From Prevotellaceae bacterium (lineage in GTDB: Bacteria > Bacteroidota > Bacteroidia > Bacteroidales > UBA932), in the NCBI GenBank assembly GCA_031270845.1, contig JAISXF010000064.1, positions 1 to 41,824 of the forward strand: a DNA stretch of 41,824 bases, written 5' to 3'. Positions 7,671-41,824 of this stretch are shown here, piece after piece. Below the pieces are notes generated by a model. It worked only from the letters and a program-made list of their open reading frames with translations, had not been told where the DNA came from and searched no databases. Position numbers and translations under genes: made by a program. Each line of letters starts with the position of its first letter. Position 1 is the first letter of the stretch.

Positions 7671-9190
7671 CACGAGTTCCTTTCTGCATAGTTTATTTGA
7701 CACTGCGATAAGGCCTTCCTGCGTTCGTCCCGTTTCATCCACCGCGTAAGAGGCTCGACAAGGCGGTCGATGTCGCCGGCACCGAAGGTTACCAGGACAT
7801 CGATGTCTTTTGTTTGAAGCACCTCGAGCAGGTTGCTTTTAGTGCATAGCTGTTTTTGAGGCAAGGTTACTTTGTCGAAAATCAGGCGGGCAGAGACGCC
7901 GGGGATCGGCGCTTCGCGGGCGGGGTAAATCTCAAGGAGGATGAGGGCATCCAAGAGGCTGAGGCTTTCGGCAAAGCCGTCGGCAAAGTCGCGGGTACGG
8001 GAATAGAGGTGCGGCTGGAAGATGCCGGTGATTTTCCTTCCGGGAAACGTTTCGCGCAGCGAGGTTATCGCCGCCCGCAACTCGGCGGGATGATGCGCGT
8101 AGTCGTCGATATAGGTACCCCGACGGGTATTGACCTGCACATCGAAGCGCCGCTGCACACCGGTGAAGGAGGCGAGTCCCCTCCGAAGGCCATCCGCGAA
8201 AGCGAAGAAGTCGTTCGTATCCCGCTGATTGCATTGCGCGTACGCCCATACTGCCGCCACCGCCGCCACCGCATTTTCGACATTCACCCGCGCGGGGACG
8301 CCGAGCACACAATCGTCGATGACGCCGCCGGGGAGGTGGAGGTCGAAGCGCAACAAACCGCTATCAAGACGCCGTATATCAGAGGCATAAAAGTCCGCCG
8401 CATCCGTGAGTGCGTAGTGGTAAACCGCCGCCGCCGCAGCCGGCCGCCGCAGCGCCGCGCTGCCGAACAGCCGCTCCACACCCTGCTTGAGGATGACCGC
8501 GCCACCGGGCTGTACCTGATGAATAAAATCGACATACGCCTGCTTCATCGCGCCGGCCGTGCCATAAATATCCAGATGGTCGGCATCGACGGAGGTTACG
8601 ACGGCTATCTGCGGGAAGAGCTGCAGGAACGAGCGGTCGAACTCGTCGGCCTCTGCTACCAGCGCCGGCGAGGCAGACAGGAGCAGGTTGCTGTCATAAT
8701 TCTTCGACACGCCTCCCAGGAACGCCGTGCAGCCGTCGCCTGCCTCAGTGAGCAGGTGTGCCGTTAAGGTGCTGATGGTGGTTTTACCGTGCGTGCCGGC
8801 AATGGCGATGGTGGTTTTGCCGGCGGCAATATGCCCGAGCGCCTTCGAGCGTTTGATAATAGGGTATCCGTGTTGCCTGAACCAGTTCAGTTCGCGGTGG
8901 TCGGCAGGCACGGCGGGGGTGTAGATAACCGACACGCCGCCGGGCGCTTCAGGAGCACGGAATGCCGGTGGGATTTTCTCGACATCATCCTCATAATGAA
9001 TGTCGATTCCCTCGGCCTCGAGGGCAGCCGTGAGCGGCGACGGCGTACGGTCGTAGCCGGCTACGACCGCGCCGGCATAGTTATAGTACCGCGCCAGCGC
9101 GCTCATGCCGATGCCGCCGATGCCAATGAAATAGACAGCCGTCGGCAGGAAACCGTCGGCAGGGGGCGGGATATGTGGTTTACTGTTCAT
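7670..9190 (-). CDS. murC: UDP-N-acetylmuramate--L-alanine ligase
   Basis: MurC adds L-alanine to UDP-MurNAc, the first step of stem-peptide synthesis, in the cytoplasm with ATP. The 506-residue protein has the N-terminal UDP-binding GIGGIGMS at residues 23-30, the ATP-binding AGTHGKTT at 131-138 and the Mur ligase C-terminal domain with YAHHPAE. The start codon falls in the first unit of a CATACTT heptamer repeat that fills the space to murG, so its ribosome-binding region is made of repeat DNA. The stop overlaps the ftsQ start by one base. Confidence 0.97.
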   Translation of the reverse strand: MNSKPHIPPPADGFLPTAVYFIGIGGIGMSALARYYNYAGAVVAGYDRTPSPLTAALEAEGIDIHYEDDVEKIPPAFRAPEAPGGVSVIYTPAVPADHRELNWFRQHGYPIIKRSKALGHIAAGKTTIAIAGTHGKTTISTLTAHLLTEAGDGCTAFLGGVSKNYDSNLLLSASPALVAEADEFDRSFLQLFPQIAVVTSVDADHLDIYGTAGAMKQAYVDFIHQVQPGGAVILKQGVERLFGSAALRRPAAAAAVYHYALTDAADFYASDIRRLDSGLLRFDLHLPGGVIDDCVLGVPARVNVENAVAAVAAVWAYAQCNQRDTNDFFAFADGLRRGLASFTGVQRRFDVQVNTRRGTYIDDYAHHPAELRAAITSLRETFPGRKITGIFQPHLYSRTRDFADGFAESLSLLDALILLEIYPAREAPIPGVSARLIFDKVTLPQKQLCTKSNLLEVLQTKDIDVLVTFGAGDIDRLVEPLTRWMKRDERRKALSQCQINYAERNS

Positions 9191-9306
9191 AATTTATACA
9201 TCATACTTCATACATCATACTTCATACATCATACATCCTACTTCATACATCATCCTTCATACATCCTGCTTCCTACTTCATACTTCATACTTCATACCTC
9301 ATACTT
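9188..9306. repeat. Heptamer tandem repeat filling the murG-murC junction
   Basis: Seventeen consecutive 7-bp units (mainly CATACTT and CATACAT, with CCTACTT, CATCCTT and CCTGCTT variants) run without a break from the murC start codon (9188-9190) to 9306. The murG stop codon (9292-9294) and its last few codons lie within the repeat. The entire spacer and the murC translation start region are therefore repeat-derived. Confidence 0.93.
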
Positions 9307-10413
9307 CGCCGCTATCGTCTGTATTTCTTTTACAATTTCGCAGGCGGCGTTGGGTCTGGCAAGGGCTGCGGCGTTTTGGCGCAGGGCGTTGAGGCGTGCA
9401 TCGTTCTGCAGGAGTTTGAGGAGGGCCGGCAGAAGGGCTGTTTCAGCATTGGCGTCGGGAATCATGAGGGCGGCGTCCTGTGCGACTAATGCCTGTGCGT
9501 TTCCGGTCTGGTGGTCTTCGGCGACGTTGGGCGACGGCACAAAGATGCAGGCCTTGCCGGCCATGCATAATTCGGCGATGGCGCCGGCGCCGGCGCGCGA
9601 CACGACGGCGTCGGCAATGGCATAGGCATAGTCCATGCGGTAGATGAAATCGAACGCTTTTATTACCGGCGGGCGGCCGGCGGTTTTCAGCGCCCGAAGC
9701 GCTTCAAGCGCATGTACGATATACGGCTTGCCGGTTTGCCAGACAAACTGCACTTCGCCACAGGCCAGCACGGGCAGGGCGAATGTCATTGTCCGGTTCA
9801 GGGTGCGGGCGCCCAAGCTGCCGCCGACGACGAGGACGGTCTTTTTATCGGGCGAGAGCCCGAAAAATGCCGCCGCCGCCGCCCGTTCGTCGGATGCAGT
9901 CCGGCGGCTGGTGAAGCGTATGGGGTTGCCGGTGAGGCGGATTTTGTCTTTTGGGAAAAAGCGTTCCATGCCGTCGTATGCGACGCAAATCCGGCGGGCG
10001 CGCCGCGCGAGGTACCGGTTGGCCATGCCGGCGTATGCGTTCTGTTCCTGCAGCAGGGTGGGTATTTTCCGCCATTGTGCAGCCCGGAGTATCGGGACGC
10101 TGGCGTAGCCGCCGACGCCGACGACGGCGTCGGGCTTAAAGTCCTTAATCACGCGCAAGGCTTTGCGGATGCTTCTGAGCAGCTTAAAGGGCAGCGCGAA
10201 GTTTTGCCGGCTCCATCTCCGCTGCAGGCCTGCTACGGGCAAGCCGACAACAGGATAGCCCGCCGCCGGCACTTTCTCCATCTCCATCCGGCCTTCCGCC
10301 CCGACAAAGAGGATGACCGTGTCCGGAAACTGCCGACGCAGTTCATCGGCAATCGCTATCGCCGGGTAAATATGTCCGCCTGTGCCGCCGCCACTGATGA
10401 TAATCCTTAACAT
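9292..10413 (-). CDS. murG: Lipid II synthase (GlcNAc transferase) MurG
   Basis: MurG transfers GlcNAc from UDP-GlcNAc to lipid I at the cytoplasmic face of the inner membrane to give lipid II. The 373-residue product has the N-terminal glycine loop SGGGTGGHIYPA at residues 7-18, a second glycine-rich loop GGSLGARTLN, and the donor-binding region VVSRAGAGAIAEL, all in the usual order for a GT-B fold of family GT28. Its last residues (KYEV) are encoded by the heptamer repeat. The upstream gene is ftsW, but a 42-bp tandem array of about 270 bp lies in between. Confidence 0.97.
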   Translation of the reverse strand: MLRIIISGGGTGGHIYPAIAIADELRRQFPDTVILFVGAEGRMEMEKVPAAGYPVVGLPVAGLQRRWSRQNFALPFKLLRSIRKALRVIKDFKPDAVVGVGGYASVPILRAAQWRKIPTLLQEQNAYAGMANRYLARRARRICVAYDGMERFFPKDKIRLTGNPIRFTSRRTASDERAAAAAFFGLSPDKKTVLVVGGSLGARTLNRTMTFALPVLACGEVQFVWQTGKPYIVHALEALRALKTAGRPPVIKAFDFIYRMDYAYAIADAVVSRAGAGAIAELCMAGKACIFVPSPNVAEDHQTGNAQALVAQDAALMIPDANAETALLPALLKLLQNDARLNALRQNAAALARPNAACEIVKEIQTIAAKYEV

Positions 10414-10468
10414 GGTGTTTTACGTTTTATGGTGATTAGTTACTGTAAAAAATTTTGTATTAACCCTT

Positions 10469-10735
10469 CCCCCTTCGGGGGTTTCTTCCACGCAACCTGC
10501 GGCGACATTCCCCCCATTGGGGAAAGTCGTCCCGCAACCTGCGGCAGCATTTCCCCCATTGGGGGAGGTCGTCATGCAAGATGCAGGAATATTCCCCCCA
10601 TCGGGGGAAGTCATCCTGCAACCTGCGGCAGCATTCCCCCCATCGGGGGTTTTCGTCCTGCAAGATGCAGGGATGTTTCCCCCATTGGAAGAAAACGTCC
10701 TGCAAGATGCAGGAATATTCCCCCCGTCGGGGGAA
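10469..10735. repeat. 42-bp tandem array with two hairpins per unit, between ftsW and murG
   Basis: Seven copies of a C5-NNN-G5 palindrome (for example CCCCCATCGGGGG) are centred at about 10475, 10517, 10559, 10601, 10643, 10685 and 10727, exactly 42 bp apart. One copy near 10685 is damaged on its right arm. Between them lie six spacers of two types. Type A contains CCGCA-ACC-TGCGG and type B contains CTGCA-AGA-TGCAG, in the order A, A, B, A, B, B. Both types therefore form a second stem. The array accounts for most of the 346 bp between ftsW and murG, and because 42 is a multiple of three it stays open in several frames. I do not consider those frames genes. Confidence 0.93.
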
Positions 10736-10759
10736 AACGCAGTGTATATTGTGTTACTG

Positions 10760-12028
10760 TTATTCATCTGCGGTAAGCGTATCTTTATTTATGGTTGAAT
10801 CCGTCGCGACGCGTCGTTTTTTCTCCTGCTCATTGGCGGTACGGCTCACGGAGAGAATTATTCCCAGCGCAAAACCCGTAGTGATAAGCGAGCTGCCCCC
10901 GTGGCTTACCAGCGGCAGCGTCTGCCCCGTTACCGGAAAGAGGCCAACCGCGACATTCATGTGCAGCAGCGCCTGGAACACGATTTGCAGCATTATTCCA
11001 AGTATAACGGTGGCGTAGAACAGGTTTTTGCAGGAACGCGCAATCACCGCCACGCGGTAGAAGAGCCACAGGTAGAGGAATAATACGCCGACGCATCCCG
11101 CTACGCCATATTCCTCGACAATGATTGCGAAAATAAAGTCATCGTAGGCATTGGGCAGGATGTGTCTTTGGGTACTGTTCCCCGGCCCCTTGCCGATGAT
11201 GCCGCCCGAAGCGACCGCTATCTTCGCGTTGTTGTATTGAAAAAGCAGGTCTTTTTTATCCTTCTTTACGGCGTCGGAGGAGAAGTGGACGATGACGCGG
11301 TTCGCGACCATCTTCTTCACGCGCGGAAACAGCGGCGTGGTATAGGAAAGCAGCACCACGGCGCCCAAACCGGCCACGCCCAGAGCCAGCGTCTTCCAGA
11401 GGTACGACGCCCGGACGCGCGCGACGGTAAGAATGATAAACACCGTGAAGGCCATCAACAGCGCCGCCGACGTGCTCCCCATCTGTATTAACAAAAGAAA
11501 CAGCACGGCAACCGGCGCCACGATGTGGCGCGCGTACCGCCAAAAGCGCGGAAGCGTATGCCGGCGGCTGTTCTCTTCCAGCACTTTGGCGACATACAGG
11601 ATAATAGCGAACTTCGCCGCCTCCGCCGGGTGGAACGAGAAAAGACCAAGGTCGATGTGGCGCGACGCCTCGTTAAATTCCGACCCGAAAAAGAAGGTAC
11701 AACCCAGCAAAATGAGCGACATATACAGCGCCGGCTTGGCGAAATTACGGTAAATGTAGTAGGGGATGAGCTGACCGACATACACTAACAACAGGCTCAA
11801 GCCGATGAACTTTGACTGTCGGATAAGGTAATCGAAGGCCGAGCCGCCCCGCAGGTCGGCCAGGGAGCTGGTGGCTGAATATACCGCCAGCAGCGACACC
11901 GCCGAGAGGATGATAACCACACTCCACAGCACGCGGTCGCCCTTCGCGGTGTGGCGTAAATCGCTGAACGCCGCGCGCGCCGCCATACGCATGTCGGCAA
12001 ATGTCATATATTTGGGCTTGTCATCCAT
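10760..12028 (-). CDS. ftsW: SEDS peptidoglycan glycosyltransferase FtsW
   Basis: FtsW is the septal lipid II polymerase of the SEDS family, acting with the division transpeptidase FtsI. The 422-residue protein is rich in hydrophobic helices (about ten), beginning near residue 34. It carries the conserved loop AVGLFPVTGQTLPLVSHGGSS near residues 355-375 and EEYGVAG before it. The family's usual length is about 380-420 residues. It begins 12 bp after murD. The gene could in principle be rodA, but its place in the dcw cluster favours ftsW. Confidence 0.95.
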   Translation of the reverse strand: MDDKPKYMTFADMRMAARAAFSDLRHTAKGDRVLWSVVIILSAVSLLAVYSATSSLADLRGGSAFDYLIRQSKFIGLSLLLVYVGQLIPYYIYRNFAKPALYMSLILLGCTFFFGSEFNEASRHIDLGLFSFHPAEAAKFAIILYVAKVLEENSRRHTLPRFWRYARHIVAPVAVLFLLLIQMGSTSAALLMAFTVFIILTVARVRASYLWKTLALGVAGLGAVVLLSYTTPLFPRVKKMVANRVIVHFSSDAVKKDKKDLLFQYNNAKIAVASGGIIGKGPGNSTQRHILPNAYDDFIFAIIVEEYGVAGCVGVLFLYLWLFYRVAVIARSCKNLFYATVILGIMLQIVFQALLHMNVAVGLFPVTGQTLPLVSHGGSSLITTGFALGIILSVSRTANEQEKKRRVATDSTINKDTLTADE

Positions 12029-24521: not shown

Positions 24522-24576
24522 TCGTTGAGTTCTTGCGTGGTTGAATTTCGCGTTCAACCGCAGTTTGTAATTTATA

Positions 24577-24652
24577 ATCCGTAATCCGTAATTTATAATT
24601 TATAATTCGTAATTCGTAATTCGTAATTCGTAATTCGTAATTCGTAATTAAT
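24577..24652. repeat. AATTCGT heptamer tandem repeat
   Basis: Six exact AATTCGT units occupy 24604-24645, preceded by degenerate units (GTAATTT, ATAATCC, GTAATCC and similar) from 24577. The DUF6261 stop codon (24648-24650) is at its edge. It is the reverse complement of the repeat at 104-206. Confidence 0.9.
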
Positions 24653-25376: not shown

Positions 25377-25443
25377 AATCTTTATTTTTTTAAATAAATA
25401 TAATCTAAATTTAAATAAATGATAAAAAAGGGCTGCCCGGCCT

Positions 25444-25670
25444 GTTCCGGTTTCCGGAAGGAACCAATTCGGTCGAAAAAACCGGTTCCGGTTTCCGGAA
25501 GGAGCAAAATCGGTCGAAAATGGTTGTTCCGGTTTCCGGAAGGAGCAAAATTCGGTCGGATTTGTTTATTCCGGTTTCCGGAAGGAGCAAAATCGGGCGA
25601 AAATGTTTGTTCCGGTTTCCGGAAGGAGCAAAATCGGTCGATGTGCGCTGTTCCGGCATTTTCGTGCGGG
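25444..25670. repeat. 41-bp tandem array with internal palindrome
   Basis: Units begin at 25444, 25485, 25526, 25568 and 25609, with a partial one at 25650 (spacings 41, 41, 42, 41, 41). Each starts with TTCCGG-TTT-CCGGAA, a perfect 6-bp stem, followed by GGAGCAAAATCGGTCGAAAA with small changes and about five variable bases. The variable part is far too short for CRISPR spacers. The array occupies most of the 418 bp between the DUF5018 and DUF6261 genes. Confidence 0.92.
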
Positions 25671-33593: not shown

Positions 33594-33628
33594 CAATTCG
33601 TAATTCGTAATTTTTAATTCTTAATAAT
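33594..33628. repeat. AATTCGT-type heptamers overlapping a stop codon
   Basis: Units CAATTCG, TAATTCG, TAATTTT, TAATTCT and TAATAAT run to the 3' end of the phosphodiester glycosidase gene and contain its stop codon (33614-33616) and last codons. Confidence 0.7.
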
Positions 33629-34987
33629 GGCCAGCCCGTTGCATACGGCGCGTTGGGAGCCGTCGGAGAGCACATTTTTGGTGGTTTTACCGATCATCAG
33701 GCAGGACGAGCCGCCGCCGTCGAGGTTGATTGCATCGGTGGCGCCGAGGTACTGCATCACCTGCGCCAGTTCTTTCGTGCTCACCCCCACCGAACCGGCA
33801 TAGCGTCCTTCGACGATGACAAAATAGACAAAGTCCTTTTGCGCAGAGTATCCGACGGCCGTACGCGGATGGTTGGCGGTGTACAGGCTTTCCGCAGGCG
33901 GCTCAAGCACTTCATTACTTCTTAAAATAATATTGCTTCCGCTTACCACATTACGAATCATTGTGGAGTTCATCTCGGGAGCGCCGGAGATGGCATAATC
34001 GACCGTAACCTCTACCTCTTCGCCGGCGTACAGGTTGTTGGTGAGGTAGGTGTTTGCCGTGCCGTTGCCCGAGAGCACAATTTTGCCTTTCGGGATGACC
34101 ATATTGCCCTTGCCGCTCATCGGTTCTTTCCGTTCTATGTTGCACCGCACGCCGATGTGGCTGCTCAAGGTTTCCCACTGTCCCGATTTCGGCGCACACA
34201 GCACCTCTGTACCCCATTCGTTGGTACCGGTGCGCGTGCCTTTGGCGGAATTGTAAAGCACCAGCCAGTTCTCCCATCGGGAGCTGTTCACGTTGGTAAT
34301 GGCAAATTCGACGCTGTTTTTGTTTTTGACCTTCGCGTTAAACGTCAGATTGCCGACATAGGGATGGTTATTCTCGTCAAATCCGACGACCGGATTTTCA
34401 TTATTCCCCAGCGTGTTCATCATTCCCCTGACCACTTCCGCATCGGTAGGCACGCCGTCGGCAGTCATGCCGTAGAAGCCGCCGTTGATGGCCACTTTCA
34501 CCTGCCGGCCTGCCGTTTCATAGCGATTTACCATCGTCAGAGGGGTTTCTTTGCCCGAAAGGCTATCTCTGCCCGACCATGCTTCGATACGATAGCCGGA
34601 GGTGTGGGTATTGTAGCGAACGGCATGAATAACTAAGGGCTTGTTCGCGTCGGTTAATTGCGCCTTGAGGTACCAGAAGCCGTTTTCAAATTCATCCATA
34701 GACGTTGTGGTTACCGTATAGGCCGTTGTCCCGAGGGTCATGGTGGTTGCCAAAACAGGGTCGGGGTCATAGTTGGGGCATCCGGGCTGCGGGTTCGCCT
34801 CACAGGGATCCACATAGTTTGGGCATCCCGGCTGCGGGTTTGCCTCACAGGGATCTGTATAATTGGGGCATCCCGGCTGCGGGTTTGTCTCACAGGGGTC
34901 GGGTTCGGGATTGCTATTCCCGCCGGAGCAGCCGGCATATAGCAGGAACCCGAATATGAGATAAGATAATAAGAGAAGCTTTTTCAT
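33614..34987 (-). CDS. Phosphodiester glycosidase (NAGPA/DUF2233) lipoprotein with Cys-rich linker
   Basis: The 457-residue lipoprotein (Cys20 after LLYAG) has an unusual linker at residues 30-73: three near-identical 15-residue units DPCExNPQPGCPNY, each with two cysteines. The NAGPA/DUF2233 domain follows, with VAINGGFYGM in the middle and DAINLDGGGSSCLMI near the end, the same hallmark as in the gene at 20478-21746. The domain removes a sugar from a phosphodiester in characterised relatives; here the substrate is unknown. It follows SusD of the first pair by 18 bp and so is probably made together with that transporter. It lacks the DUF5018-like domain found in its counterpart. Confidence 0.85.
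   Translation of the reverse strand: MKKLLLLSYLIFGFLLYAGCSGGNSNPEPDPCETNPQPGCPNYTDPCEANPQPGCPNYVDPCEANPQPGCPNYDPDPVLATTMTLGTTAYTVTTTSMDEFENGFWYLKAQLTDANKPLVIHAVRYNTHTSGYRIEAWSGRDSLSGKETPLTMVNRYETAGRQVKVAINGGFYGMTADGVPTDAEVVRGMMNTLGNNENPVVGFDENNHPYVGNLTFNAKVKNKNSVEFAITNVNSSRWENWLVLYNSAKGTRTGTNEWGTEVLCAPKSGQWETLSSHIGVRCNIERKEPMSGKGNMVIPKGKIVLSGNGTANTYLTNNLYAGEEVEVTVDYAISGAPEMNSTMIRNVVSGSNIILRSNEVLEPPAESLYTANHPRTAVGYSAQKDFVYFVIVEGRYAGSVGVSTKELAQVMQYLGATDAINLDGGGSSCLMIGKTTKNVLSDGSQRAVCNGLAIIKN
34769..34900. repeat. 45-bp tandem repeat encoding DPCExNPQPGCPNY units
   Basis: Three in-frame 45-bp units in the coding sequence of the phosphodiester glycosidase encode its Cys/Pro-rich linker. The DNA of the second and third copies is nearly identical, which points to recent expansion or gene conversion. 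Copy changes would keep the frame. Confidence 0.9.
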
Positions 34988-41580: not shown

Positions 41581-41824
41581 CATCTCCCATCCGCACTCCA
41601 CCATCTCCCATCCGCACACCTGTACATCGCATCCGGAGAAGTGTACATCGCATCCGGAGAAGTGTACATCGCATCCGGAGAAGTGTACATCGCGTCCGGA
41701 GAAGTGTACATCGCATCCGGAGAAGTGTACATCGCGTCCGGAGAAGTGTACATCGCATCCGGAGAAGTGTACATCGCATCCGGAGAAGTGTACATCGCAT
41801 CCGGAGAAGTGTACATCGCATCCG
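41581..41824. repeat. 21-bp tandem array at the window edge
   Basis: Units of GTGTACATCGCATCCGGAGAA begin at 41641, 41662, 41683, 41704, 41725, 41746, 41767, 41788 and 41809 (cut by the window end). A slightly altered unit begins at 41620 and two degenerate units at 41581 and 41602 (CATCTCCCATCCGCAC...). The only difference among the core copies is GCG for GCA in the copies at 41683 and 41725. The low divergence points to recent expansion. Because 21 is a multiple of three, the array is open in several frames on the minus strand; none looks like a real gene. Confidence 0.95.

Follow-up and report, generated by a model that had tools for sequence, protein, structure and literature searches.

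The gap between ftsW and murG in the genome of a Prevotellaceae bacterium is occupied by a tandem array whose units carry two palindromes each, with stems that change in both arms. This raises the question of whether the array serves the neighboring genes as RNA or as a protein-binding site, or whether it is a product of the way in which DNA is copied in this lineage. The window analyzed here, that is, the whole stretch of DNA, comprises 41,824 nucleotides. Arrays were detected with TRF in combination with a simple gene finder based on codons, in this window and in further stretches of the same genome, of its genus, and of other taxa; most of these genomes are fragmented metagenome-assembled genomes (MAGs). 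The features of the locus are given in Table 1.

Table 1. Features of the ftsW–murG region (positions in the window)
Feature	Position	Strand	Basis
Tandem array, 42-bp unit, 6.4 units, two palindromes per unit (dyads 21.0 bp apart)	10469–10735		TRF and dyad profile
First CCCCC/GGGGG palindrome	10469–10481, dyad 10475		Sequence
Other CCCCC/GGGGG-type (stem-1) dyads	10517, 10559, 10601, 10643, 10685 (degraded), 10727		Sequence
First palindrome of the second type, CGCAACCTGCG	10490–10502, dyad 10496		Sequence
Other second-stem dyads	10538, 10580, 10622 (mixed CTGCA/TGCGG), 10664, 10706		Sequence
ftsW–murG intergenic gap holding the array	10414–10759, 346 bp	−	ORFs and Pfam
ftsW, upstream gene	10760–12028	−	Pfam FTSW_RODA_SPOVE
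murG, downstream gene	9292–10413	−	Pfam Glyco_transf_28 and Glyco_tran_28_C
ORF, 115 aa, 14-aa repeats through the array, judged non-coding	10420–10767	−	Codon log-likelihood

The array between ftsW and murG

The array takes up most of the gap within a compact operon for division and cell wall functions. Both the exact 42-bp period (TRF, indels = 0) and the placement between ftsW and murG (ORFs, Pfam), which had been proposed from reading the sequence, were borne out; the higher-order periods 84 and 126 outscored 42 in TRF. Seven stem-1 dyads lie at 10475 + 42n and six stem-2 dyads at 10496 + 42n. A stem-1 dyad and the neighboring stem-2 dyad are exactly 21.0 bp apart, a distance that was far ahead of all others tested. 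The earlier note had counted seven C5/G5 palindromes; the seven dyads at 42-bp steps are present, but one copy has decayed (CCCCC..GGAAG, dyad 10685) and another contains four G only (dyad 10517). At offsets 2–6 from the dyad, 86–100% of the pairs were of the Watson–Crick type in stem 1 and 67–100% in stem 2, and pairing dropped off past offset 6. Because the palindromes are thus local, the 21-bp spacing in the window array is not the trivial product of one long palindrome. In the sister arrays L021, L025, and L030, the palindrome extends over almost the entire unit, so that a spacing of 21 bp is to be expected there.

Head-to-tail repeats within the range of 10–100 bp (TRF) and a non-coding position (gap 10414–10759, negative codon score) agree with a bacterial intergenic minisatellite. 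A CRISPR array was rejected, since the whole unit repeats and unique spacers are absent. The pattern TTCCCCCNNNNGGGGGAA gave 64 matches per strand genome-wide when up to two mismatches were allowed, compared to 3 with the reversed pattern as a control. Several loci of the genome harbor related 42-bp units, but these have diverged and their second stems are different. The window contains a further intergenic array with a period of 41–42 bp (25443–25641), in which every unit carries the palindrome CCGGTTTCCGG, as well as a 45-bp (15-codon) tandem repeat within a predicted gene on the minus strand (repeat 34768–34897, gene 33614–34987).

Paired changes in the stems

The two versions of the second stem and the mixed unit at dyad 10622, all described in the earlier note, were found in the sequence. 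Only three of the six second stems are perfect across 5 bp; an outer mismatch is present in two and a T·G pair in one. In the window, a single stem position changes in both arms between good pairs, and the two versions differ in the loop and the 3′ flank as well (ACCTGCGGCAGCATT vs. AGATGCAGGAATATT). The stem change is tied to these other changes and hence amounts to approximately one event, not to repeated independent covariation, so that the covariation argument from the window array alone is weak. The mixed unit, thought to remain pairable through G–U, does form T·G on the plus strand; ftsW and murG, however, are read from the minus strand, and on this transcribed strand the pair is C·A.

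For a broader comparison, 21 units of this family were aligned; they came from seven array stretches of the genome, two of which (L025 and L030) possibly represent opposite ends of a single array split by contig ends. Here, 91.9% of the cells were paired and all five stem-2 pairs varied on both sides. The covariation score was 0.354, compared to 0.167 after shuffling and at most 0.104 with the partner slid, in a set whose rows are related and whose stem 2 is perhaps not homologous in every array. The complementarity of the stems is clearly maintained across related arrays. The proposal that both arms change together to keep pairing is supported for the family of arrays and weak for the window, where about one event accounts for the change.

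The stem errors in co-directional arrays, read on the transcript, comprised 24 G–U and 32 A·C cells beside 1176 Watson–Crick cells; a G–U preference on the transcribed strand was not found in this set. The symmetry is accordingly held irrespective of which strand is transcribed, which points to maintenance at the DNA level or to template switching in replication and not to selection on RNA. Template switching can make and repair perfect stems in single steps and also yields paired changes (PMC8794818). Such changes alone are no proof of a functional RNA, a caution that applies to repeat arrays in general.

The 21-bp period and the turnover of arrays

In the 20 stretches sampled from the same genome (282 kb), the periods of tandem arrays clustered at 7, 14, 21, 42, and 63. 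Among intergenic arrays with at least 2.5 copies in all stretches of this genome, a count that includes stretches picked for the C/G palindrome, period 21 was found 20 times, 42 16 times, and 63 twice, compared to one array of period 20, two of 22, one of 41, and none of 28. The palindromic intergenic arrays in the sampled stretches of this genome had periods of 21 (13 arrays), 63 (two), and 23, 24, and 41 (one each); in other species of the genus (473 kb), the periods were 21 (11 arrays), 42 (three), 63 (one), 23 (five), 46 (one), and 41 (one). Altogether, 30 of the 40 sampled palindromic arrays had a period that is a multiple of 21 (P about 2 ∙ 10−19, assuming that the length per dyad is uniform over eight values), and seven of the 40 had a period of 23 or 46. 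The units are often unrelated in sequence between loci of the same genome, and the 21-bp dyad spacing is also present in such unrelated arrays and, as read from its unit, in an array of a different MAG (L053). Palindromic arrays were absent from 557 kb of other genera and families, and two were present in loci of other named MAGs that add up to 907 kb (42 bp in L053, 63 bp in L066). We regard the structure of the arrays and the lock of their period as established.

Arrays of shorter period are frequent as well. The window contains heptamer arrays at 100–203, 9186–9307, and 24567–24649 (TACGAAT, TTCATAC, and GTAATTC), and arrays of period 7 or 14 numbered 38 in the 282 kb of the same genome and 34 in the 473 kb of the genus, while they were rare in the other families sampled. 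An origin of the 21-bp units from heptamers, with 7 nt as the quantum of slippage, was rejected, as no 7-bp period is concealed within the palindromic 21-bp units (lag-7 identity 0.216, expected 0.248).

Turnover was followed by scoring arrays as present or absent between species, each represented by one genome. The arrays downstream of three genes of the analyzed genome are missing from the same gaps in the closest species, whose flanking proteins are 80–94% identical. In more distant species, two of these three gaps hold 21- or 42-bp arrays of unrelated sequence, namely a 42-bp and a 21-bp array downstream of the first gene checked (G001) and a 21-bp array downstream of tsaD (G005). No array comparable to that of the window was found between ftsW and murG in relatives; the gap of G001 contains an unrelated 19-bp hairpin array. 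The absence in close relatives, together with unrelated arrays in distant ones, indicates that arrays are quickly born and lost, and we take their turnover between species as established, too. In G002, a 14/28-bp tandem repeat apparently lies within the coding region of murG (L127, 1998–2064). The nearest named relatives of the MurG protein are encoded by MAGs deposited as Prevotellaceae, whose isolate names suggest a termite-gut source.

Origin of the arrays and comparison with known systems

The reading we favor, with a confidence only somewhat above even, is that the array is a lineage-specific intergenic palindromic minisatellite with a 21-bp rhythm, which arose by slippage and template switching and has little or no role for the neighboring gene. 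Replication slippage at hairpins would create and expand the units, while template switching across the hairpin and exchange between units would keep the arms complementary; the neighboring gene would play little or no part. Next to the mixed unit lie units in which a change of several bases has made the stem perfect (TCCTGCA/TGCAGGA), and a mixed unit beside these fits the outcome expected of template switching. Against this origin, slippage by itself predicts neither the exact 21-bp unit nor a second mode at 23. The fixed unit is the interesting part of the finding: unrelated repeats that return to one unit length need a ruler, and finding it would explain how bacterial minisatellites are born. 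Candidate rulers are the helix pitch (21 bp being two turns), a property of the polymerase, a nuclease, or a dedicated enzyme.

Loss of the hairpin-cutting nuclease SbcCD may let palindromic arrays persist in the family. None of the nine genomes of the genus (G000–G008) yielded a match to its nuclease subunit SbcD; above the curated cut-off, SbcD was found in none of the other family members sampled and in eight of 16 genomes that belong to different families of this order. As SbcD is missing throughout the sampled family and palindromic arrays were seen in this genus only among the stretches read from the family, the loss is not sufficient, and SbcCD loss was rejected as the full cause. It predates the arrays and is hence permissive at most. 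Loss of mismatch repair was likewise rejected as a cause, since MutS was matched in 41 of 41 genomes.

A stronger version, which we put forward only tentatively, is that a dedicated mechanism is at work in the genus, which actively generates tandem palindromic arrays from arbitrary local sequence and fixes their unit at 21 bp (in the minor case 23 bp). If so, independent loci and species converge on one unit length without a common sequence.

It is rather unlikely that the spacing itself is under selection, with dyads two helical turns apart presenting one face of the helix to a dimeric or structure-reading protein, a candidate being one related to the nucleoid, supercoiling, or cruciforms. 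Periods of 21 and 42 bp correspond to two and four turns at 10.5 bp, the symmetry is equal on both strands, the local palindromes of the window nevertheless have dyads exactly 21.0 bp apart, and this spacing recurs in unrelated arrays and in that of L053. Helical phasing, however, fits neither the second mode at 23/46 bp nor the lack of a mode at 22 bp, the units share no sequence that a specific protein might bind, and orthologous sites do not keep their arrays. Indels within arrays amount to about 5% of the substitutions (16 to 324), which reveals no special guard on phase; selection on phase, as argued from scarce indels, was therefore not supported.

Still less probable is the insertion into the operon of a mobile element resembling a MITE with a minisatellite, comparable to BrickBuilt of Porphyromonas gingivalis. 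The site without array in relatives and the related 42-bp units at several loci would agree with such an insertion. The array is also flanked by an 8-bp direct repeat, GTTACTGT (10439–10446 and 10753–10760), of which these are the sole two plus-strand copies in the window and which is a possible target-site duplication, but an 8-mer common to both flanks appeared in 6% of shuffles. A heptamer doublet lies within 250 bp of 12 of the 28 sampled arrays with a period of 21n, compared to 13% of random points, which include coding DNA. Terminal inverted repeats were not recognized when the flanks of the window array were inspected by eye, and as the units are unrelated in most arrays of the genome, one mobile family would be insufficient.

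The earlier note had suggested that the array tunes the level of MurG from the leader of its mRNA. Hairpins in the ftsW–murG transcript would then set MurG output through stability, pausing, or translation, which we consider improbable. Only 55 bp separate the array from the start codon of murG, the operon is compact and read from one strand, paired changes are seen across related arrays, and predicted folding is far beyond chance on the transcript strand (z = −9.4). The opposite strand, however, folds nearly as well (z = −8.2), the transcript shows no preference for the G–U intermediates that a cis-regulatory leader would favor (24 vs. 32 A·C), and the mixed unit reads as C·A on the mRNA. Nor is the array conserved at ftsW–murG in relatives, and unrelated 21-bp arrays are present genome-wide, so that the suggested tuning of MurG found no support. 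Similar arrays lie between genes of every orientation; a bias toward convergent genes was absent within the intergenic set of the analyzed genome, and one toward co-directional genes was not significant (Fisher p = 0.11). No Rfam family reached its gathering score; a known RNA family was rejected, the only three hits being below threshold and judged to be due to chance. An array of intrinsic terminators was rejected as well in view of the missing orientation or convergent bias and the lack of U-tracts of note. One weak terminator-like site lies in the array on the minus strand (10714–10698).

Translation of the array as a 115-aa repeat protein is highly improbable and was rejected: the reading frame runs from ATG to stop with an 8-bp overlap with the end of ftsW and stops 6 bp before murG, and the period is divisible by three, but the codon log-likelihood of the frame is −15.8 in total, compared to a per-codon value of about +0.23 in called genes 85–230 aa long, the array can be read through without a stop in five of the six frames, related arrays contain stops in some frames, and Pfam gave no match. 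An artifact of metagenome assembly is scarcely credible, for although the assembly is fragmented and arrays of exactly 118 bp, the length that an assembler with k = 119 would leave, terminate several contigs, the units in the window differ from each other, the array sits between intact genes, and similar arrays are present in independent assemblies of other species. The contigs in question start or end in exactly 118 bp of perfect tandem array (L135, L143, L148, and L151). This length matches the breaks of a short-read assembler with k = 119, and array lengths are therefore probably underestimated. The end of the window (41621–41824) lies inside a 21-bp array of TGTACATCGCATCCGGAGAAG, and the first 118 bp of contig C102 (L151, 1–118) consist of this unit, too; the two contigs are probably neighbors split by this array. 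Arrays of this kind seem to interrupt the assembly of short reads from these bacteria and are thus probably under-counted.

The preferred reading, a palindromic minisatellite of this lineage, was compared with known repeats. In our search of the literature, no relevant report of palindromic arrays with a 21-bp period in Bacteroidetes came up. REP and BIME sequences are extragenic palindromes in many copies that form sequence families tied to RAYT transposases. They resemble the arrays described here in their extragenic position, palindromic structure, and high copy number, but REPs are not arrayed in such a way that their dyads keep a constant distance of 21 bp. Heptanucleotide direct repeats are found in cyanobacteria, Beggiatoaceae, and some Bacteroidetes (PMC4679880, where the 2007 survey of Mrazek et al. 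is covered as well). They, too, are abundant and intergenic, and heptamer arrays are common in the genus analyzed here; they are not palindromic minisatellites, however, whereas the 21-bp palindromic units have no 7-bp substructure. Hairpins maintained by template switching share the perfect stems, which are made or repaired by multi-base reverse-complement copying, but were described for RNA genes and not for tandem arrays of a fixed unit (PMC8794818).

The tandem repeat regions of Borgs are similar in being many, independently born, fast-evolving arrays of unrelated units that are often intergenic, and are almost absent from the host genomes (PMC9879509). Borg repeats are perfect, rich in A, and differ in length, whereas the units described here are often palindromic, diverged, fixed on 21n, and located on a bacterial chromosome. 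In P. gingivalis, also a member of the Bacteroidales, MITEs carry the tandem repeats BrickBuilt (23 nt) and 464/PgRS (41 nt) in variable copy number, and these likewise form intergenic arrays at many loci per genome and families of unrelated units (PMC4596501). BrickBuilt is one sequence family with a leader, a tail, and small inverted-repeat ends (PMC4596501); such ends were not recognized at the window array, and in the arrays described here the units are mostly unrelated between loci and the period is locked mainly on 21.
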